A DNA stretch of 58,956 bases, taken from NCBI GenBank assembly GCA_028717345.1, contig JAQUNZ010000007.1, positions 1 to 58,956 of the forward strand, written 5' to 3'. Every line of letters begins with the position of its first letter. Positions within the stretch are counted from its first letter, which is position 1. Origin of the DNA: Candidatus Methanoperedens sp. (GTDB lineage Archaea > Halobacteriota > Methanosarcinia > Methanosarcinales > Methanoperedenaceae). The notes under the pieces are model-generated. The model was not told the origin of the DNA. It saw nothing but the letters and a program-made list of their open reading frames with translations, and searched no databases. Below are positions 387 through 18,754 of this stretch, in pieces. Both the position numbers and the translations under genes were made by a program.

Positions 387-797
387 ATGACCCCCGAACT
401 CCTCTCCCTCGCCCGCTATCTCGCCTCCTCCCGCGCCGAGTTCAAGCTCTCCGAGATGAACCAGTATCTAAGTAAAAGTTACGAAGAAAAAGAACTCTAC
501 GAGTGCCTTAAACCCCATTTCTTCGAACTCGACCTCTTCTGCGATGCACACTATAATTGCACAAAGTTTACAAACAGCCCGCTCCCTGCGGACGAGCAAG
601 TCATCCATGAACTTGAAGAGATGCTAAAAGCGCCGTGGCTGCCATTGTATATCGAGAAATTGATCGACTCGTACATCGATCGCTCATGCGGCAAAGACTG
701 GAACACAGGCGAGACGGCGCGCAATTTACGCGAGAACATCGTAAAGCAGAAGGAAGAATACTCGATAGGAAGATACCCGAAGCTCAGCCCTCTTTAA
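387..797 (+). pseudogene. Truncated duplicate of the Rsm22-type methyltransferase gene (5' part)
   Basis: This 136-codon frame matches the first ~135 residues of the intact gene at 4029-5510, at high protein identity (for example LPADEQVIHELEEMLKAPWL is identical). The similarity begins exactly at the ATG and ends near position 787; then about three unrelated codons lead to a stop. The SAM-binding and cysteine regions are absent, so it cannot be a working methyltransferase. It lies upstream of the restriction-modification genes and looks like the left boundary of that insertion: either the old 5' end of the host gene or a copy brought in by the island. Confidence 0.85.
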
Positions 798-867
798 ACG
801 GATTTTTCGCAGACAGGGCATATAATGATTGATAATCTATTTATTTATAAAAACCAAACTACCATAT

Positions 868-1167
868 ATGTCCGAAATATCCATTACCGCGCCCGAAGAT
901 ATCGAGACCAAGATCAAAATGCTTGCAGCCGGGCTTCATATGGACAGGTCAGCAGTGATAAGAAGCATTATAGACGTCGGGGTGCGGCAAAAGCTGATCG
1001 AATACTCATTAAATCAGTTCATGGATAAGAAAGTCTCCCTGGCAAAAGCGGCAGATATCGCAGGTATCTCGATTCGTGAAATGCTGGATATCCTGAACGA
1101 GAAAGGCATACCGCTTCATATCTCTCAAAAAAGCATTATGAAAGATTTTGAGGCTGCCATGCAATGA
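868..1167 (+). CDS. UPF0175 family protein, probable orphan antitoxin
   Basis: The 99-residue protein resembles UPF0175, small helix-turn-helix proteins often encoded as antitoxins before PIN-type toxins. A ribbon-helix-helix-like N-terminus (ISITAPEDIETKIKMLAAGL) is followed by a DNA-binding-like stretch, LAKAADIAGISIREMLDILN, at about residues 53-72. I chose ATG 868 over an upstream start at 829 because a TATA-like sequence (TTTATTTATAAA, about 841-851) lies some 25 bases upstream, which suggests a leaderless transcript. No toxin gene follows: a 36-codon frame overlapping the stop (ATG 1164) does not look like a PIN domain. The antitoxin role is inferred from the family. Confidence 0.65.
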   Translation: MSEISITAPEDIETKIKMLAAGLHMDRSAVIRSIIDVGVRQKLIEYSLNQFMDKKVSLAKAADIAGISIREMLDILNEKGIPLHISQKSIMKDFEAAMQ

Positions 1168-1325
1168 TCTTTACGCAAATTTGTGATTACATATTTGGGG
1201 TTGTTAAGATTGTGACACTAAAACAGTTTACAATCCCGATAGATGAAAAACAGTATATAGGGTTAGGGGTATAATAGAAATATTGAAAGAAAGGCAAGAA
1301 TGAAAAGGCTGAGGGATATCCATAT

Positions 1326-2978
1326 ATGTGTGCATCTGTTCTGACAAGCTGGAATGAATCGAGTACGGATTTAAAAATTAAGAAGGATTATGCTTCAAAA
1401 TTATTCTCTATAAAAGAGGCAAGCGAATGGGCAAGTAAATACTTGAACAAAAAAGTTACTACCTCAAATATATCTTATCTTATTCAATATGGGAGAATTA
1501 AAAAAATTGGCAGCAATGGGGACACTTTTATCGTTAAAGAAGATTTAATTAAATATTATGATTCTTATCTGGGAAAAAGAGAAGTTGAATGGAAAGAGCA
1601 ATTGGGAGAGGACTTAAATTGGGCTTTATCTTTTGATAACCTGAAAGAAGCAGATACCACAAAGCATGTTCACAGGTTACACCCATACAAAGGTAAATTC
1701 ATCCCACAGTTAGTGGAATATTTCTTAGATGGGCACACAGATAAGTTCAAAAAAGAAGTCTATTTTAAAAAAGGCGATGTTGTGCTTGATCCTTTTTGTG
1801 GAAGTGGAACAACTTTAGTTCAAGCTAATGAACTTGGAATGCATGCCATTGGACTGGATGTTTCAGCTTTTAACGCACTGATCAGCAATGTAAAAGTTGG
1901 TAAATATGACTTTTTAGATCTGGATTTCGAGATTAAGAAAATTTCAAAAGCTTTGAAACAATTTATTGCAGATTCAAATACTATTAAGTTTGAAACTAAG
2001 CTTGCTCAAGAACTCGCAAAGTTCAATAACAAATATTTTCCTCCTGATTACAAATACAGAGTAGTGCTGAACGAAGTCAATGAAGACCAATACGGAGGTG
2101 AAAAAGAAAAAGAATTTTTACCTGTTTTCTTGAATTTAGTCAAAGAATATAATATCCAATTGAAACAAAACGAATGCAATAGCTTTTTGGATAAATGGTA
2201 TTTGCAGCATATCAGAACTGAGATAGATTTTGTCTGCAACCTCATCAAGCAAATCAAGAATCCATCTACCAAAAAAGTTTTAAGCATTATTTTAAGCCGG
2301 ACAATTCGTTCATGTCGCGCTACAACCCATGCCGATTTAGCCACATTAAAAGAGCCTGTGACTACTACTTATTATTGTTCCAAACATGGAAAAGTCTGTA
2401 AGCCTTTGTTTTCTATTTTAAGCTGGTGGGAACGTTATAGCAAAGACACGCTTGATCGTTTATGCCAGTTTAATAATTTGAGGACAGATACTTATCAGAT
2501 TTGTTTAACAGGCGACTCTAAAGAGATCGATATTTTTGAAGAATTGGAGAATAAAAATCAAGCGTTGTCTGGAGTGGTAAAAAACCAGAAAATAAAAGGT
2601 ATCTTTTCAAGTCCTCCATATGTTGGTTTGATCGACTATCACGACCAGCATGCCTATGCCTATGATCTGTTTGGTTTTGAAAGACATGATGAATTAGAGA
2701 TAGGGCATCTTCTCAAAGGACAAGGCAAAGAAGCCAGAAATCTATATGTTGAAGGAATCTCAGAAGTTTTAAAAAATTGCAAAAGATTTTTGGCTGATGA
2801 TTATGACATATTCTTAGTTGCAAATGACAAATATAATTTATATCCAACCATTGCAGAAAAGGCAGACATGCAGATCGTAAATCAATATAAACGACCTGTT
2901 TTGAATAGAACGGAAAGAGACAAAGGGGCGTATTCGGAGATTATTTTCCATTTAAAATCAAGAGCGCATAATGATTGA
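1326..2978 (+). CDS. Type II DNA methyltransferase of the R-M pair
   Basis: A 550-residue SAM-dependent DNA methyltransferase. The SAM-binding motif DPFCGSGTT is near residue 155 and the catalytic SPPY motif (SSPPYVGLIDYHDQHAYAYD) is near residue 430. SPPY suggests an N4-cytosine (or N6-adenine) amino-methylase. About 270 residues separate the two motifs, so the target-recognition region probably lies between them. The first ~75 residues look like an excisionase-type helix-turn-helix (FSIKEASEWASKYL), which could bind DNA or regulate the operon. The stop overlaps the start of the endonuclease gene by eight bases, which implies translational coupling. AT-rich codon use differs from the flanking host genes. 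Confidence 0.88.
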   Translation: MCASVLTSWNESSTDLKIKKDYASKLFSIKEASEWASKYLNKKVTTSNISYLIQYGRIKKIGSNGDTFIVKEDLIKYYDSYLGKREVEWKEQLGEDLNWALSFDNLKEADTTKHVHRLHPYKGKFIPQLVEYFLDGHTDKFKKEVYFKKGDVVLDPFCGSGTTLVQANELGMHAIGLDVSAFNALISNVKVGKYDFLDLDFEIKKISKALKQFIADSNTIKFETKLAQELAKFNNKYFPPDYKYRVVLNEVNEDQYGGEKEKEFLPVFLNLVKEYNIQLKQNECNSFLDKWYLQHIRTEIDFVCNLIKQIKNPSTKKVLSIILSRTIRSCRATTHADLATLKEPVTTTYYCSKHGKVCKPLFSILSWWERYSKDTLDRLCQFNNLRTDTYQICLTGDSKEIDIFEELENKNQALSGVVKNQKIKGIFSSPPYVGLIDYHDQHAYAYDLFGFERHDELEIGHLLKGQGKEARNLYVEGISEVLKNCKRFLADDYDIFLVANDKYNLYPTIAEKADMQIVNQYKRPVLNRTERDKGAYSEIIFHLKSRAHND

Positions 2979-4017
2979 AAACTCAAAAAAAGAAAGAATT
3001 GCTATTGAAGTAATAAAAACTCTATTTTCAAGATTCGAAAACTTCCCAGAAGATGCATCAAATAATAGAAATGCCCCTTTTCATGAAGCATTCTTAAGAG
3101 CTTTTTCTGATAAATTAAATAATCGAGTTTCGGATATACCATTTTTTATTAGTTTAAGCAGTTGGTTGCATGGATTAAATACAACATTAGGTCAATCATT
3201 TTTTGAAAGCGTTGCCCATATACTTTCAGATGGATATAAAAAAGAATTTACAAGGAATAGAAACACTCTTTTGAAAGTATCGCAAATTCAAAAAAGGGCT
3301 ATTTCAGACATCATGACTGACCTAAAAAATGGTACTGAAAATCCAAATCTTAATCGTGAAAATGGTTTGATATTTAATGCCACGACACAAGCAGATTTTG
3401 AAGCAAATAGCTTCACAGTTGATGTATATGTAGAATCTGACACAGAAATAATTGCTATCGAACTAAAATCAGTTAGACCTAATTCCGGTGAAATGGGTGG
3501 AGAAAAGCAAAAAATTCTACAGGCAAAAGCTACACTTTATATTGAATTTCCAGGAAAAGAAATACATTATTATATCGGATTCCCATTTGATCCAACAAGC
3601 GACACCCCCACAGGTCATGATAAAGCAAGATTTTTAGATTACTTAGTTGATGGTAGCAAGTATTTCGCATTAGATGAAGTTTTATTGGCTAAAGAACTCT
3701 GGGATTTTCTTTCAGGTGATAATAATACAATGGAGCAAATTCTTGAAATCATTAATGCAATTGCTACTCCGGAATTTATGAATAAATATAACTATTTGAA
3801 TGAAAATCAAAATCGCCTAAATGATACTGAGAATTATATAAATTTACTTCAGAAGTGGTTTTTATTCCGAGAAATTGATTTGCTTAGCAATAATTCAATG
3901 ATTCAGCAAAAGATCAGAGGTATATCAAAAGCCGAAAGAGTTTTCAAACAACCTATTCTAAAAAAAGGAGAGTATAATTTTACTCGATATGATTCTCTGA
4001 AAGGTTTAATAGAATGA
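2971..4017 (+). CDS. TdeIII-like type II restriction endonuclease
   Basis: A 348-residue protein resembling the TdeIII restriction endonuclease family. A PD-(D/E)xK-type site is visible near residues 150-167: D in FTVDVYVESD, then the ELK of IAIELKS. Its start lies inside the last codons of the methyltransferase gene, as expected for a coupled R-M pair in which modification is made first. Known TdeIII-type enzymes cut GGNCC; whether this one shares that target cannot be read from the sequence. The gene ends 11 bases before the intact Rsm22-type gene and is AT-rich like its partner. Confidence 0.78.
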   Translation: MIENSKKERIAIEVIKTLFSRFENFPEDASNNRNAPFHEAFLRAFSDKLNNRVSDIPFFISLSSWLHGLNTTLGQSFFESVAHILSDGYKKEFTRNRNTLLKVSQIQKRAISDIMTDLKNGTENPNLNRENGLIFNATTQADFEANSFTVDVYVESDTEIIAIELKSVRPNSGEMGGEKQKILQAKATLYIEFPGKEIHYYIGFPFDPTSDTPTGHDKARFLDYLVDGSKYFALDEVLLAKELWDFLSGDNNTMEQILEIINAIATPEFMNKYNYLNENQNRLNDTENYINLLQKWFLFREIDLLSNNSMIQQKIRGISKAERVFKQPILKKGEYNFTRYDSLKGLIE

Positions 4018-4028
4018 TATAACTAAAA

Positions 4029-5510
4029 ATGACCCCCGAACTCCTCTCCCTCGCTAAATTCCTGGTCTCCTCCCGCGCCGAGTTCGCGCTATCCGAGATG
4101 AACCAGTATCTCAGCCGCAGATACGAGGAAAAAGACCTCTACGAGACCCTGAAACCCCATTTCTTCGACCTCGAACTCTTCTGCGACACACGCTATAACT
4201 GCAGAAAGCTCATAAACCGCCAGCTTCCTGCCGATGAGCAGGTCATCCATGAACTTGAAGAGATGCTAAAAGCGCCGTGGCTGCCATTGTATATCGAGAA
4301 ACTGATCGACTCGTACATCGAGCGCTCATGCGGAAAAGACTGGCACACAGGCGAAACGGCGCGAATCTTACGCGAGAACATCGTAAAGCAGAAGGAAGAA
4401 TACTGGAGAGGAAGCTCGAAGTACCCGAAGCTAAGGGTCATCACATACCTGCTCTATCATTTCCCGGTCTATTTCTGCCAGTTCCAGTACCTCCTCCTTG
4501 ACCTTTTAAAAGGCGGACTGCTCACCACCAAAATGAGCATCGTTGATGTCGGGTCAGGTCCCGGGACGATAACGCTTAGCACGATTGATTTCCTTCATAA
4601 ACTGCTTTCAGTCTATTCAAAAAAAGGCATTGATATAAAGTTGAATATTAAGATCGATTCAATCGAGAAAGTTCAGGAGAATATCGACTGCTATAAAGAA
4701 CTTACATCTCTTTACCTCTCAAAGCATCAGCATGAGAACGCCAGCATAATCGTTAACAAGCCAGTCAATTCACCTCTTGAAAAAGCGCAACCTGTTGTGG
4801 GCGCAGACCTCATAATATTCTCGAACGTCCTTGCCGAGATGAGTTCCCCGCATGCAGAACGCGCCCGAGCCGTGGAAAAACTCTCATCAGGAAGCTTAAA
4901 CCCCACGGTATTGCTCGTGGAACCTGCAGACCTTGTCAATTCAAAAGCGCTGCGTATCACGCAGCAGGCACTCATGAACAGGGGATTTACGGTTTACAGC
5001 CCATGCACATTCCTATGGGGTGCAGTATGCACAGGCGGTGACTGCTGGAGCTTCAGGGAAGAGGGCAACATCAGGGTACCTGATTTCATGAGAAAAATAG
5101 CAGGAAATGAGGAAGCTTACAGGTACCTGAACACTGATATGAAATTCACCTATGCGATACTTCGAAAAGACGGCGCTGTAAAACAAAAATACCGCGCAAA
5201 GGGAAAGTTCGCAAGGCTCTCGACCCTTAAGAAACATCTCAAAAAGCGCATCAATGTAGCGGTTTCTGTCATGTCCGGGAACCTGGGAGATGAAAAAACC
5301 TTTGTCTTTAAGATATGCGATGGTACAACATCTGTTCCCTGCTATGCTGTTATCCCCGCATACCACAAGAACGATAATAATAAGGCGCTACTTGAAGCGA
5401 ATTACGGCAGCATCGTTGAGATATTCGGCGCGCTCGTCAGGGAGAACGAAGAATTTTCTTCATACAACCTGCTGATAAATAGAAATACAATAGTTGAACC
5501 TGTAAAATGA
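4029..5510 (+). CDS. Rsm22-family SAM-dependent methyltransferase with C-terminal OB-like domain
   Basis: A 493-residue protein of the Rsm22 type, related to mitochondrial ribosomal small-subunit assembly factors and predicted rRNA methyltransferases. The SAM motif VDVGSGPGT is near residue 174. A cysteine-rich stretch, CTFLWGAVCTGGDCW, near residues 326-340 may hold an Fe-S or zinc site as in the family. The last ~100 residues look like an OB-fold nucleic-acid-binding extension. The ATG is in the same position as in the truncated copy at 387. The sequence upstream of the start is island DNA, so the native promoter has been replaced; transcription may come from the R-M genes, whose last stop is only 11 bases away. 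Confidence 0.75.
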   Translation: MTPELLSLAKFLVSSRAEFALSEMNQYLSRRYEEKDLYETLKPHFFDLELFCDTRYNCRKLINRQLPADEQVIHELEEMLKAPWLPLYIEKLIDSYIERSCGKDWHTGETARILRENIVKQKEEYWRGSSKYPKLRVITYLLYHFPVYFCQFQYLLLDLLKGGLLTTKMSIVDVGSGPGTITLSTIDFLHKLLSVYSKKGIDIKLNIKIDSIEKVQENIDCYKELTSLYLSKHQHENASIIVNKPVNSPLEKAQPVVGADLIIFSNVLAEMSSPHAERARAVEKLSSGSLNPTVLLVEPADLVNSKALRITQQALMNRGFTVYSPCTFLWGAVCTGGDCWSFREEGNIRVPDFMRKIAGNEEAYRYLNTDMKFTYAILRKDGAVKQKYRAKGKFARLSTLKKHLKKRINVAVSVMSGNLGDEKTFVFKICDGTTSVPCYAVIPAYHKNDNNKALLEANYGSIVEIFGALVRENEEFSSYNLLINRNTIVEPVK

Positions 5511-11404: not shown

Positions 11405-12355
11405 ATGCTTTTTGACATGCACCGCGCCAGAAGCCTTATAGATGCGCTGGAAATCGAGACAAACACGAAGGCGTCTATGTTTAAAGCCTTTTCGTGCAGG
11501 GTGGAACTCTCAGGTGATAATATCCATTTTTTCAACGAGCCTTTCACCCCGGTTTCCCTGACAGGAACACACTGCTCACTTCGATGCAAACACTGCGATT
11601 CCTATTATCTCAGGCACATGCTGGACGGCTCACCCGGCAAATTATACCCCCAGGCAACCCATCTGGCAAAGAACGGCGCAAGCGGAATACTTCTCAGCGG
11701 CGGAAGCGCACCTGATGGAAGCGTGCCTACGTATGAGCAGGCTGACGTTATCCGAAAGCTCAAGAAAGATACTGGGCTTAAAATAAGCGCGCATACAGGC
11801 ATCGTGAACAGTAAGCAGGCACAGATACTTTCGAGTTACCTTGATATGGCGCTCGTGGACATTCTTGGTGATGACGACACTATACATGACATCCTTGGCA
11901 TTGATGCCTGCGTAGCAAATTATGAAAACTCGCTGGAAGAGCTATCGTCTGCCGGTATTCCCCTTGCCCCCCATATTATTGTTGGGCTGCATGATGGAAA
12001 ATTAAATGGGGAATTCAGGGCTCTTGAAATGGTAAGGAAATTTTTTCCTGAAGTAGTTGTAATAGTGGTTTTCATCCCAACAAAAGGAACTTCTATGGAG
12101 GGGACCCCGCCTCCCAGGTTCGAAGATGTAGTAAAAGTAATAACAAAGGCTCGTGAAATGTTCGATGTGCCCCTGTCCTTAAGCTGCGTGCGCCCCGGGG
12201 GCAGGTACCGCTCCATGCTTGACAGGTATGCCATCCTTAGCGGAATTGACAGGATCGCTGTGCCTTCAAAAAGCGCGTACTCAACTGCAAAGGAACTGGG
12301 ATTGAACGTGGTTGAGATCCCGAAAATGTGCTGCTCGTATGGTGTATCGTTATGA
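11405..12355 (+). CDS. Radical SAM protein, possible LipS-like sulfur-inserting enzyme
   Basis: A 316-residue radical SAM protein. The [4Fe-4S] motif is C57-x3-C61-x2-C64 (THCSLRCKHCDSYY). A TIM-barrel follows, with LLSGGSAPDGSVPTYEQAD, KISAHTGIVNS and PHIIVGLHDG. The C-terminus carries a pair of cysteines (C309, C310, in KMCCSYG) that could bind an auxiliary cluster. The next gene overlaps it (ATGA), and two lipoyl-type H-protein homologues follow within 2.3 kb, which suggests a role in making or loading a cofactor on them. Archaeal lipoyl synthases LipS1/LipS2 are radical SAM proteins of this general size; identity with either is not established here. Confidence 0.7.
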   Translation: MLFDMHRARSLIDALEIETNTKASMFKAFSCRVELSGDNIHFFNEPFTPVSLTGTHCSLRCKHCDSYYLRHMLDGSPGKLYPQATHLAKNGASGILLSGGSAPDGSVPTYEQADVIRKLKKDTGLKISAHTGIVNSKQAQILSSYLDMALVDILGDDDTIHDILGIDACVANYENSLEELSSAGIPLAPHIIVGLHDGKLNGEFRALEMVRKFFPEVVVIVVFIPTKGTSMEGTPPPRFEDVVKVITKAREMFDVPLSLSCVRPGGRYRSMLDRYAILSGIDRIAVPSKSAYSTAKELGLNVVEIPKMCCSYGVSL

Positions 12356-13167
12356 AAAAGATAGCAAGCCATGATGAAATTGATATTTTCGCACCCGATG
12401 ACTCGCGTTTCTCCTTTCTCAAAAGCCCGTATGCAGCCCACAAAACCCATAGCGCCGTGGATATCTATTACGGGGATTTCGGAAGCGAAGCTCTCTCTCC
12501 TGTTGACGGGGAAGTGATCGACGTTCAAAGCTTTGACACGCCAACTCCTTTCAAAGAATGGAATTCGAAGGAATACGTCATAGCCATAAGACAAAATGAG
12601 AAGGTCATTAAGATCCTTCATGTAAAACCTGATGTCACGCCAGGCGATGCGGTTTCAAAAGGCGATAGTATTGGGACATTCATACACAATGGCTATTTCA
12701 TTTTCTGGAACGACCCGGTGATGCATGTCGAAGTAAGGACGCGGGGGGATTACCTTCGCGCCTCGAATAACATGCGGCTAACCCCCAGCATTGAATGGAA
12801 CGAACTACCATGCAGTAAAAATATCGAGCTTGAATGCCGGGTTGAAGAAACGAATAAGAGATATTCTCTACTCAATTCCCCCTGCCATACATGCGGTGAT
12901 GTCAGGGGATTTGCTCTGGACGGCGGATTCCTTGATGGATATATTTCCTCCATGGAAAACGGTTTTTTTGGTATTGTCAAACCTCATGGATTCTTCCACC
13001 CCGGAGTGTCGCTTGAAGTAACGAAAGATAATTCAGTAATAAAATGCAATGGCATTGCTTTTTGCCTCTCGTTCAGAGAACCGGGAATAAAAGTAATACC
13101 TCTGAAATACGGCGATGGACAACTTTGTGTTGGTGATAAAGTCCGCATCAGGATCGAAGTTCTATAA
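12352..13167 (+). CDS. M23-peptidase-like / hybrid-motif protein of unknown function
   Basis: A 271-residue protein whose first ~130 residues resemble the beta-barrel of M23 peptidases and biotin/lipoyl-like domains: HSAVDIYYG (H-x3-D), ALSPVDGEVIDVQS, VSKGDSIGTFI and VMHVEVR. The M23 HxH motif is degraded, so peptidase activity is doubtful. The second half contains CHTCGD, a possible metal site. There is no signal peptide, so it should be cytosolic, which is unusual for M23 proteins. It overlaps the radical SAM stop by four bases (ATGA), so the two are translationally coupled. The barrel could bind a lipoylated or biotin-like carrier; this is inference. Confidence 0.55.
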   Translation: MKKIASHDEIDIFAPDDSRFSFLKSPYAAHKTHSAVDIYYGDFGSEALSPVDGEVIDVQSFDTPTPFKEWNSKEYVIAIRQNEKVIKILHVKPDVTPGDAVSKGDSIGTFIHNGYFIFWNDPVMHVEVRTRGDYLRASNNMRLTPSIEWNELPCSKNIELECRVEETNKRYSLLNSPCHTCGDVRGFALDGGFLDGYISSMENGFFGIVKPHGFFHPGVSLEVTKDNSVIKCNGIAFCLSFREPGIKVIPLKYGDGQLCVGDKVRIRIEVL

Positions 13168-13636
13168 CCTTTCGCAGCCGTTCCCTGAGCACTTCTGCAG
13201 CGCTGCTAAGGTCTGTGTCGTACAGGTCTTTCATCTTCGAATTGTATAGAAAAGTGTAGATCTTCTTCAGTTTAGCCTCTTTCCTGTCCTTCATCACAGT
13301 GTTTTCAGGCGCGAGGAGGATACTGAAATCATGCGGGTGGTTAAGTATAAAGTCCCTGATATCTTGTGCGGTCTTCATTTCAGGCAAAACTTTGAGCATC
13401 CAGATTATGGGGGGACCCCTTGTTTTTCGCTGCTTCGGACCGTCGTGGATATATAAGCCGAACCTGAAATCCTCTTTTTTCTTAAGGAGAGCAGAAAGCG
13501 TCATCGCTCCAGCGCCGCTGCATACTTCCACCTTCTCGCTCAGTACGGTGTAGCCCATCTCAGACAGTTCTTTTTTTGCGAATTGCAGCAGCGAAAGTTC
13601 GTATTCCTGCTCAGGGACGCCCCAGTAATCGCTCAT
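13148..13636 (-). CDS. Protein of unknown function in the H-protein-like cluster
   Basis: A 162-residue protein of no family I recognise. It begins MSDYWGVPEQEYELSLLQFA and contains a Gly-rich turn (VCSGAGAMTLSALL) and a Lys/Arg-rich C-terminal half with a helical end. I chose the ATG at 13636 over one at 13678 because the longer form runs almost to the divergent gene start at 13691. Its 3' end overlaps the convergent M23-like gene by 20 bases. It lies between the M23-like and H-protein-like genes on the opposite strand, so it may be functionally unrelated. Confidence 0.55.
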   Translation of the reverse strand: MSDYWGVPEQEYELSLLQFAKKELSEMGYTVLSEKVEVCSGAGAMTLSALLKKKEDFRFGLYIHDGPKQRKTRGPPIIWMLKVLPEMKTAQDIRDFILNHPHDFSILLAPENTVMKDRKEAKLKKIYTFLYNSKMKDLYDTDLSSAAEVLRERLRKVIELRS

Positions 13637-13690
13637 GTTATCAAGCAGGTATCGATGGCTATTTATAGGTATCTTCAAATCTTACGCATC

Positions 13691-14113
13691 ATGAAAGCCT
13701 TTGAATTTGATTTCCCTGAAGACAGGTATTACCTGAAAAACCACATCTGGTTAAAGCCAGAGAATGGACACATACTTATTGGCATCACAGAACTCGGGCA
13801 GTCGCTTTCCAAAGGGATAGTTCACATAGACCTGCCTGAAGTCGGTGAATCGGTCAGTAAAGGCGACATGCTGATAGCATACGAGACCATAAAAGCAGTC
13901 TCCCAGATAACTCTCCCTTTTGACGCAAAGGTCATGGAAGTGAATGAAAAACTCTGGGATGACCCTAACATTATCAATTCTGACCCGTACGGTGAATGGC
14001 TTGTGAAAATCGAAGGAAAGTGGAACGAAAGGTCGTTATTGAATGTAAGGGATGCTGCGGAATATTATAAAAAACTGATAGCTAAAGAGCGGGAACGGTA
14101 CGCAGGTAATTAA
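13691..14113 (+). CDS. Glycine cleavage H-protein-like lipoyl carrier (first copy)
   Basis: A 140-residue protein with the fold signature of the glycine-cleavage H-protein: YYLKNHIWLKPENGHILIGI at the start, IDLPEVGESVSKGDML, and the lipoyl site YETIKAVSQI with Lys68 in the position that carries lipoate. NSDPYGEWLVKIE follows as in true H-proteins. No glycine cleavage P or T protein is encoded nearby, so it may serve another pathway, as lipoate-binding proteins of the sHdr sulfur pathway do. I chose ATG 13691 because the longer frame to 13583 would cover the divergent gene start. A second homologue begins 44 bases downstream. Confidence 0.82.
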   Translation: MKAFEFDFPEDRYYLKNHIWLKPENGHILIGITELGQSLSKGIVHIDLPEVGESVSKGDMLIAYETIKAVSQITLPFDAKVMEVNEKLWDDPNIINSDPYGEWLVKIEGKWNERSLLNVRDAAEYYKKLIAKERERYAGN

Positions 14114-14157
14114 GTTTATATATTACAATGTAATAAGCAAGAAATTGAGGAAAAACT

Positions 14158-14586
14158 ATGGTAGAGATAGAGGGATATAATCTTCCTGATGAATTGTATT
14201 ATACCAAGGATCACACATGGGCAAGAGTAGAGGATAATGGAACTATCACTGTGGGAATGGATGCCTTTGGCGCGAAAGCTGCTGGCAACATAGAGTTTAT
14301 AGATCTTCCGATGGACGATGATGAATTTGAGACAGGTGAGGCTTTTGGATCGCTTGAATCTGCAAAATGGGTCGGAGGACTTCTCATGCCTGTAGGGGGA
14401 AGTGTGATAGCTGTGCATGAAGACATTGAAGATGACCTGAACCTGCTGTCAGAAGACCCCTATGGAGAGGGCTGGTTGATAAAAATAAAACCGTCTAACC
14501 CGAAAGACGATCTAAAATTACTCATTCATGGTAACGATGTTGGTCCGTGGCTTAAGAAAGAGATACAGAACAGGAAGAAAAAGTAA
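14158..14586 (+). CDS. Glycine cleavage H-protein-like lipoyl carrier (second copy)
   Basis: A 142-residue H-protein homologue. Typical stretches are YYTKDHTWARVEDNGTITVG, IEFIDLPMDDDEFETGEAFG and the lipoyl site SLESAKWVGGLL, with Lys70 in the modified position. The AKWVG form of the site differs from the IKAVS of the first copy, so the two carriers probably have different partners. GEGWLIKIKPSNP follows. It has its own possible promoter (AAGTTTATATATTAC, about 14113-14127) and a GAGG binding site. It ends one base before the convergent JAMM gene. Confidence 0.82.
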   Translation: MVEIEGYNLPDELYYTKDHTWARVEDNGTITVGMDAFGAKAAGNIEFIDLPMDDDEFETGEAFGSLESAKWVGGLLMPVGGSVIAVHEDIEDDLNLLSEDPYGEGWLIKIKPSNPKDDLKLLIHGNDVGPWLKKEIQNRKKK

Positions 14587-14976
14587 CTACCAGTTTTCGT
14601 TTTCTTCATTGAACTCATAATCTACGACTTCAATCCTGACCTCTTCCCCTTTGTTATTATAGCATGTCCAGGAGGACTCATTAAACGGCGAGCCCACTAT
14701 GATATGGTAACTGCCTTTCCTGTCAAAGAGTTCAAGGTCATCAGTAGAAGGTTTCCTGTTCCCTGAAGGATGGCTATGCACAGTCCCGACAGTAGATATG
14801 TTAGGAAGCATGAACAACTGCATCACAGCACTCACTTCACCCGACTCCGTGCCAGGGACGAGCACAACGTCCGTGATGACATCCCCTGTTGCAGAGAGCA
14901 TACCTGCAAATTCATTCGGTGCGGACGATTTGCTGGCTTCAAGTATGAACTTTAATGTGTCTTTCGCGATCCTCAT
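14587..14976 (-). CDS. JAMM/MPN metalloprotease
   Basis: A 129-residue single-domain JAMM (Mov34/MPN/PAD-1) protein. The full zinc motif is present: Glu22 (PNEFAGML), then His67-x-His69-x7-Ser77-x2-Asp80 in TVHSHPSGNRKPSTDD. Archaeal JAMM proteins can remove ubiquitin-like SAMP modifiers or process their C-termini. No SAMP gene is seen nearby, but an E1-like gene lies at 27935-28744. The enzyme is complete and probably active. It converges on the second H-protein-like gene with no gap. Confidence 0.85.
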   Translation of the reverse strand: MRIAKDTLKFILEASKSSAPNEFAGMLSATGDVITDVVLVPGTESGEVSAVMQLFMLPNISTVGTVHSHPSGNRKPSTDDLELFDRKGSYHIIVGSPFNESSWTCYNNKGEEVRIEVVDYEFNEENENW

Positions 14977-18136: not shown

Positions 18137-18514
18137 CTAGAACAATTCCAGTTCTTCAAAACCATCAAAGTGGTCTTTATTAAAAGTGAATAATTTGTAA
18201 CCTCGATTTATCGCAACTGCTGCTATCATTGCATCAAACCTGGGAATCTTATTCCCTTTTTTCTCTGCTTTCACTTCAAGTAGGGCAGAGAGAGCTGCAT
18301 CTTCTTTCGTGAAGTCCACAACCTCAAGCAGCATTATTCTCTCGGATTTTTGCTTATCAGCATATTTGAACATACCATACAGGATTTCATGAAGATTCAA
18401 TGATGTGAGGGATATATCTTCCCCGGCGTCCTCAATTCTCTGCAAAGCGACTGCCCCTTTATTTGAGTTCTTATCGAAAATTTCAATAAGAACATCAGTA
18501 TCAGCAAGAATCAA
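18137..18514 (-). CDS. vapC: PIN-domain ribonuclease toxin (VapC family)
   Basis: A 125-residue PIN-domain protein, a predicted Mg-dependent RNase. Acidic residues are in place: Asp in MILADTDVLIEIF at the start, Glu in SLNLHEILYGMF, and Asp in IPRFDAMIAAVAINRG. It starts at TTG 18514, overlapping the vapB stop (TTGA) and preceded by the good binding site GGAGCTAAGG, so its synthesis is coupled to the antitoxin. Confidence 0.88.
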   Translation of the reverse strand: MILADTDVLIEIFDKNSNKGAVALQRIEDAGEDISLTSLNLHEILYGMFKYADKQKSERIMLLEVVDFTKEDAALSALLEVKAEKKGNKIPRFDAMIAAVAINRGYKLFTFNKDHFDGFEELELF

Positions 18515-18726
18515 TACCTTAGCTCCTTTCTTTTATCAGATAACTCTTTCAAAAGAGCTTCTTTATTTCTGAATTCAATCGAGCTTCTCAATTCTTTAAG
18601 TTTATCAATATTTCTTCGGGATTTCACAATCCTTTCAAAAAAATTGCTGAAGCTCTCGTTTGCTCCCTTTATCGAAAGGAGCATTCTGTAAATATCTTCG
18701 CGTATGGTTATGGTCTTGGTTGTCAT
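18511..18726 (-). CDS. vapB: VapB-type antitoxin
   Basis: A 71-residue antitoxin starting MTTKTITIREDIYRMLLSIK, a ribbon-helix-helix-like DNA-binding N-terminus, followed by a charged helix (IEFRNKEALLKELSDKRKEL) that would wrap the toxin. I chose ATG 18726 rather than the in-frame TTG at 18732. The palindrome at 18731-18754 directly upstream is the likely autoregulation site. Confidence 0.82.
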   Translation of the reverse strand: MTTKTITIREDIYRMLLSIKGANESFSNFFERIVKSRRNIDKLKELRSSIEFRNKEALLKELSDKRKELRY

Positions 18727-18730
18727 AAGC

Positions 18731-18754
18731 AAACATATGTTTAAACATATATTT
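18731..18754. promoter_or_regulatory. Candidate vapBC operator, tandem AAACATAT boxes
   Basis: AAACATATGTTT (18731-18742) is a perfect 12-base palindrome and is followed directly by the near-copy AAACATATATTT (18743-18754). It lies five bases from the vapB start and overlaps the TATA region, the usual place for VapB-VapC autorepression. Confidence 0.6.

Follow-up and report, generated by a model that had tools for sequence, protein, structure and literature searches.

The subject of this analysis is a 58,956-nucleotide stretch of Candidatus Methanoperedens sp. (assembly GCA_028717345.1, contig JAQUNZ010000007.1; hereafter the window), in which a radical S-adenosylmethionine (SAM) gene is followed by a gene for an M23-like protein and by two genes for GcvH-family proteins, H1 and H2 (Table 1). 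These genes very probably belong to an archaeal LplAB-LipS2-LipS1 lipoate assembly system serving two dedicated H-type carriers, and not glycine cleavage; that lipoate assembly is involved at all is nearly certain. The pathway is known, but its arrangement here and one accessory protein are new. A reading of the sequence alone (the sequence-only reading) had located the four genes and the candidate lipoyl-lysines, Lys68 in IKAVS and Lys70 in AKWVG, correctly.

LplAB-LipS2-LipS1 lipoate assembly has been described in Thermococcus kodakarensis (Neti 2022, PMC9585515) and in bacteria and archaea more generally (Tanabe 2023, PMC10332631). The radical SAM protein of the window scores 251 bits against NF053742, the curated NCBIfam equivalog for LipS1 (cut-off 230), and by this model is LipS1 itself. 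In the T. kodakarensis enzyme, the radical SAM cluster is bound by Cys27/31/34 and the auxiliary cluster by Cys230, Cys276, Cys277, and His159 (Neti 2022, PMC9585515). The window protein has Cys57/61/64 (Cx3Cx2C) for the first and Cys261, Cys309, Cys310, and His190 for the second, so that the C-terminal cysteine pair already pointed out in the sequence-only reading is Cys309-Cys310, the auxiliary-cluster pair. All seven ligands are invariant in 39/39 sequences of this type (LipS1a), and the same ligands are found in LipS1b, a second paralog present in nearly every well-covered genome with the M23-like gene (scores of 208-233 bits, in most cases slightly below the cut-off). LipS1a and LipS1b form separate clades. 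A phmmer search with the window LipS1 against the PDB gave no match. Elsewhere in the genome, whose assembly spans 2.54 Mb and is 95.9% complete, LipS2 is encoded on contig C35 (295.7 bits, cut-off 270) and LplB on contig C66 (79.5 bits, cut-off 65), with LplA adjoining LplB; the only other PF03099 protein is BirA. By these assignments, the pathway is gene-complete.

This bears out the lipoate maturation and carrier system proposed in the sequence-only reading, but not its suggestion that the parts would differ from those of the LipS1/LipS2 route. Indeed, the genome resembles the known system in its LipS1 and LipS2, both above curated cut-offs, in its bipartite LplA/LplB, and in its complete set of cluster ligands. 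What truly differs is the M23-like protein coupled to LipS1, the LipS1 paralog, and the second dedicated H protein, and the genes are scattered in this genome.

The genes do co-occur in other archaea, a point that the sequence-only reading had proposed for checking. We surveyed 238 genomes of the class (families are labeled f1-f35, loci L, and genomes G; lineage names were assigned indirectly, in part from McrA content). The order LipS1a-M23-H1-H2 recurs in several families, and the association is therefore far beyond chance. The most complete form is a nine-gene operon in f3, an ANME-2 (anaerobic methanotrophic archaea) cluster, with the order LplA'-LplB-LplA-LipS1b-LipS2-LipS1a-M23-H1-H2; two metagenome-assembled genomes (MAGs) of Methanosarcinaceae in f5 have a near-identical order. 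Whereas this operon is intact in ANME-2 relatives, the window has it in scattered form. LplA' was considered as a LipL-type amidotransferase and dropped, as the ligase lysine motif RKISG is kept (by eye).

The M23-like protein gives a substantial match in 40/238 class genomes. When 85,000 species genomes were scanned for its conserved stretches, 34 loci were returned, all from Methanoperedens, ANME-2, or unspecified Methanosarcinales, Euryarchaeota, or archaeon MAGs. No named methanogen was among them, although distant relatives may escape such a pattern-based scan. Across the phylum, strong H2 matches outside the class came only from f35 and G277; the many remaining, weaker matches reach at most 105 bits and lie mostly in haloarchaeal-looking families. 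The two f35 genomes each carry two divergent McrA-like genes, as in alkyl-coenzyme M reductase archaea, and the Methanoliparia-like G277 carries one McrA and one divergent copy. Within the class, the module appears, from gene content, to be confined to lineages resembling methane or alkane oxidizers. It cannot serve as a general marker for the anaerobic oxidation of alkanes, as H2 was not found in family f10 (~55 genomes, probably ANME-1). McrA (PF02249) had no match in the window genome, although one or two copies are present in the majority of the relatives tested; either the assembly has a gap or this is a Methanoperedens relative lacking methyl-coenzyme M reductase.

H1 and H2 form two monophyletic clades. 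Their motifs, ETIKAVS around Lys68 and ESAKWVG around Lys70, are strictly conserved (28/28 and 37/37, respectively), and each is 61-82% identical to its orthologs and only ~30% identical to the other. They share family and lipoyl-lysine position with GcvH, and it could be argued that they are ordinary GcvH proteins of glycine cleavage or reductive glycine synthesis whose P and T partners were missed by an assembly that is not fully complete. However, they score below the TIGR00527 cut-off, no GcvP or GcvT match was found in the whole window assembly, as the sequence-only reading had noted for the window, and no GcvP was found in ~50 further genomes with H1/H2. Full-length GcvP occurs in 5/238 class genomes, each time beside a separate, higher-scoring canonical GcvH, which argues that H1 and H2 are not the carriers of that system. 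We are highly confident that glycine cleavage is not their function here, and the opposite explanation is extremely unlikely. According to the sequence-only reading, its proposal would be refuted by a full glycine cleavage system and canonical LipA/LplA elsewhere that account for both carriers. The former is absent, whereas a ligase, LplAB, is present; it completes the lipoate pathway and does not explain the carriers away. H1 and H2 are the only GcvH-family genes of the window genome. In the class, this family is confined to module-bearing lineages and f2, with only trivial partial matches in methanogen-like families. In f2 genomes (L116-L118, L090), the H-protein gene follows apparent ribosomal protein L10e and aIF2-beta genes.

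The pattern of gene loss offers a clue as to which carrier does the work. H2 is found without LipS1 in nine genomes, and H1 and the M23-like protein are also absent from 9/9 (a tenth genome, G068, was set aside as a contig-edge case). The nine genomes belong to f2, f3 (two genera), and f4, which amounts to some four separate losses; among H2 genomes, Fisher's test gives p = 1e-6 with relatedness ignored. Four f4 genomes retain a C-terminal remnant of the M23-like gene upstream of H2, which shows a deletion of LipS1-M23-H1, and in two of the nine genomes the H2 cluster also contains an LplAB fusion. H2 presumably outlives biosynthesis through lipoate salvage. As it is kept where biosynthesis is lost, H2 is probably the working carrier, and we lean toward a role as end-use carrier; the loss of H1 and the M23-like protein along with LipS1 suggests that these two act in assembly. 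Alternatively, H1 would be no scaffold but a second end carrier, matured by LipS1a and the M23-like protein, with LipS1b maturing H2. The contiguity of LipS1a-M23-H1 in f4, the position of LipS1b near H2 in G043 and G045, and the separate LipS1 clades fit such a division. Nevertheless, H2 persists without either LipS1, and the f3 operon holds LipS1a, LipS1b, H1, and H2 together, which makes it doubtful.

The M23-like protein is the least expected member. Its gene lies directly 3' of LipS1a wherever both share a contig, and in the window the overlap seen in the sequence-only reading proved to be an ATGA common to the lipS1 stop and the M23-like start (ATG 12352); we consider the two translationally coupled. 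A start at GTG 12328 was rejected, as the extended frame contains a stop in several relatives and relatives align from ATG 12352. The protein scores 26.6 bits against PF01551, under the gathering threshold of 28.7, and its profile had no match among PDB sequences. In Foldseek, the M23 domain of a confident AlphaFold2 model (predicted local distance difference test score, pLDDT, 90.8) matched lysostaphin, LytM, and EnvC with probability 1.00; the protein thus has the LytM fold of M23 metallopeptidases. Because the match covers only a portion of the protein, template modeling (TM) scores normalized to the length of the query are low (0.2-0.3).

This fold, together with invariant His30, Asp37, His90, and His125, would be compatible with an active cell-wall or protein metallopeptidase that is adjacent to lipS1 by chance. 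However, the HxxxD and HxH zinc/catalytic motifs are not conserved, with the first histidine present in only 8/32 (position 33) and 9/32 sequences (position 123), and the gene directly follows LipS1a, overlaps it here, and is absent where LipS1 is lost. A chance peptidase neighbor is therefore very unlikely, and the protein is probably not a standard peptidase. In this it resembles EnvC and NlpD, degenerate LytM-fold activators with an incomplete catalytic site, but differs in its coupling to a lipoyl synthase and in its extra C-terminal beta domain. LytM and lipoyl domains share the sandwich-barrel hybrid fold, so that docking or scaffolding next to an H protein would be plausible. At L130 (G055:C13), the M23-like gene is cut to ~40 residues after LipS1a, and that genome has a GcvP-linked canonical GcvH and neither H1 nor H2.

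Heterodisulfide reductase (Hdr) genes in some relatives hint at a partner for the carriers. Two ANME-2c-like loci, L127 and L128, hold three glutamate synthase subunits, an LplAB fusion, HdrC, HdrB, HdrA, and H2 in one run, with an HdrB-C fusion at the start of the L127 run. HdrB and HdrC exceed the cut-offs for coenzyme B-coenzyme M heterodisulfide reductase (TIGR03288, TIGR03290). The link between lipoate and Hdr does not depend on H2 adjacency alone, because LplAB sits inside the Hdr run. The arrangement at L127:303-9562 and L128 (HdrB-C fusion, split three-subunit glutamate synthase, LplAB fusion, and HdrCBA, all on one strand) may possibly encode an Hdr-linked glutamate synthase. At L163 of the Methanoliparia-like G277, GlcD-like and HdrD/TfrB-like genes precede an H gene, then Lpd, LipS1, LipS2, and LplA; this Lpd is a true dihydrolipoyl dehydrogenase (561.8 versus 408.8 bits). 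A flavin gene resembling coenzyme A-disulfide reductase recurs near LplA/H2 in f3, f4, and f5.

The sequence-only reading had likened the cluster to the sHdr system of sulfur oxidation, in which LbpA is the lipoate-binding carrier (Cao 2018, PMC6067878). The likeness holds in that GcvH-like carriers of two types occur in the absence of glycine cleavage, a lipoate ligase accompanies LipS1/S2, and the clusters of some relatives contain Hdr genes. It fails for the N- and C-terminal cysteines of LbpA, which H1 and H2 lack (as do some archaeal LbpA), and for the Hdr proteins of relatives, which are of the HdrABC or HdrD type; no sHdr cluster was found within the window, the rest of the genome not having been searched. 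The genes thus fall outside sHdr, yet the working analogy of GcvH-like carriers, lipoylation genes, and Hdr-type neighbors is close, if suggestive only.

In another reading, lipoylated H1 and H2 would hold sulfane sulfur for sHdr-like oxidation or for assimilation through TusA and sulfite reductase instead of carrying electrons; a sulfur-carrying role has been proposed for LbpA in sHdr (PMC6067878). In M. nitroreducens, LipS1a-M23 lies near such genes: at L076:9720-13707 it is divergent from a sulfite/nitrite-reductase-like gene, followed by TusA, an ornithine-cyclodeaminase-family gene, and LipS2. The TusA link is limited to that one genome, the alignments of H1 and H2 have no conserved cysteine column, and the neighboring Hdr is of the HdrABC type, so that a sulfur-carrying role seems unlikely here.

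For the lipoate assembly and carrier system that we favor, established biochemistry suggests that LplA and LplB would load octanoate or lipoate onto the carrier lysine, and that LipS2 would add sulfur at C8 and LipS1 at C6. The LytM-fold protein would most likely mediate between LipS1a and H1 as a scaffold or specificity factor, with no peptidase activity. By analogy with LbpA in sHdr, Hdr-type (CCG-domain) enzymes, along with a pyridine-nucleotide disulfide reductase, would probably exchange electrons or sulfur with the dithiol/disulfide of lipoyl-H2. Hdr coupling of lipoyl-H2 is a tentative proposal, somewhat less likely than not.

Several points weigh against this interpretation. LipS1, LipS2, and LplAB lie on separate contigs in the window genome, canonical LipA, E2 (PF00198), or other lipoyl domains may exist elsewhere in that genome, and lipoylation of H1 Lys68 and H2 Lys70 is a prediction from sequence. 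Simple truncation of the operon could account for the loss of H1 together with LipS1. Nine genomes with LipS1a have only a truncated M23-like gene or none at all, and several Methanoperedens genomes with LipS1a and H1 lack it; the protein would therefore be helpful but not essential. Strong Hdr linkage comes from one genus (two species) and one distant genome, and the evidence for it, drawn from few lineages, is moderate. HdrA near H or LipS1 at L059, L099, and L123 occurs at about chance frequency by a rough estimate, since these genomes carry several hdrA genes, and we discount these cases. Finally, H2 and HdrA in f4 may have become neighbors only through the deletion to which the M23 remnant is due.

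Table 1 Genes of the lipoate module in the window and their immediate neighbors
Feature	Position	Strand	Basis
lipS1 (LipS1a), radical SAM lipoyl synthase component	11405-12355	+	NF053742
Degenerate LytM/M23-fold protein with C-terminal beta domain	12352-13167	+	PF01551 (sub-gathering), AlphaFold2, Foldseek
Protein of no matched family, convergent with the M23-like gene, between M23-like and H1	13148-13636	-	
H1, GcvH-family carrier, predicted lipoyl-Lys68 (ETIKAVS)	13691-14113	+	PF01597, 98.1 bits
H2, GcvH-family carrier, predicted lipoyl-Lys70 (ESAKWVG)	14158-14586	+	PF01597, 112.5 bits
Prok-JAB (JAMM) protein convergent with H2, neighbor only	14587-14976	-	PF14464, 42.2 bits

The reverse-strand gene between the M23-like gene and H1, whose product had no family match in profile searches, adjoins LipS1a or the M23-like gene in most loci of the same genus and is absent from ANME-2a/3-like operons; it is an own-genus neighbor outside the core module. 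The pairing of H2 with the convergent JAMM/Prok-JAB gene likewise recurs in many own-genus loci, even where H1 and H2 have left LipS1. Farther away, the open reading frame (ORF) at 387-797 shares 81% identity with residues 1-135 of ORF 4029-5510, and a DNA-methyltransferase-like gene and a second unidentified gene lie between them (1326-4017); the region 387-5510 looks as if a restriction-modification-like module had inserted with partial duplication. Judged by eye, a PIN-domain-like toxin is encoded at 18137-18732 (-), preceded by a small antitoxin-like ORF.

The literature that we searched on ANME together with lipoate, lipoyl, or glycine cleavage contained no account of such a module, and neither an ANME comparative genomics study (PMC9012536) nor an HdrA survey (PMC12054007) mentions lipoate. 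Four features are, in that literature, new or undescribed: the LytM/M23-fold protein coupled to LipS1, the second LipS1 paralog, two ancient and separate H carriers, and the confinement within the class to lineages resembling methane or alkane oxidizers. One could speculate that lipoyl-H2 is a dedicated protein-bound dithiol partner of Hdr-type enzymes in methane and alkane oxidizers, that this lipoate-dependent transfer of electrons or sulfur is lacking in their methanogen relatives, and that the LytM-fold protein is a new lipoate-assembly factor, although this fuller proposal is rather doubtful at present. From a biological perspective, the analysis reduces the candidate lipoate users of methane-oxidizer-related lineages to two named carriers, excludes glycine cleavage for nearly all of these lineages, and puts forward Hdr-type enzymes as a specific, testable partner. 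If the Hdr link is true, it would add an unrecognized redox carrier to reverse methanogenesis.

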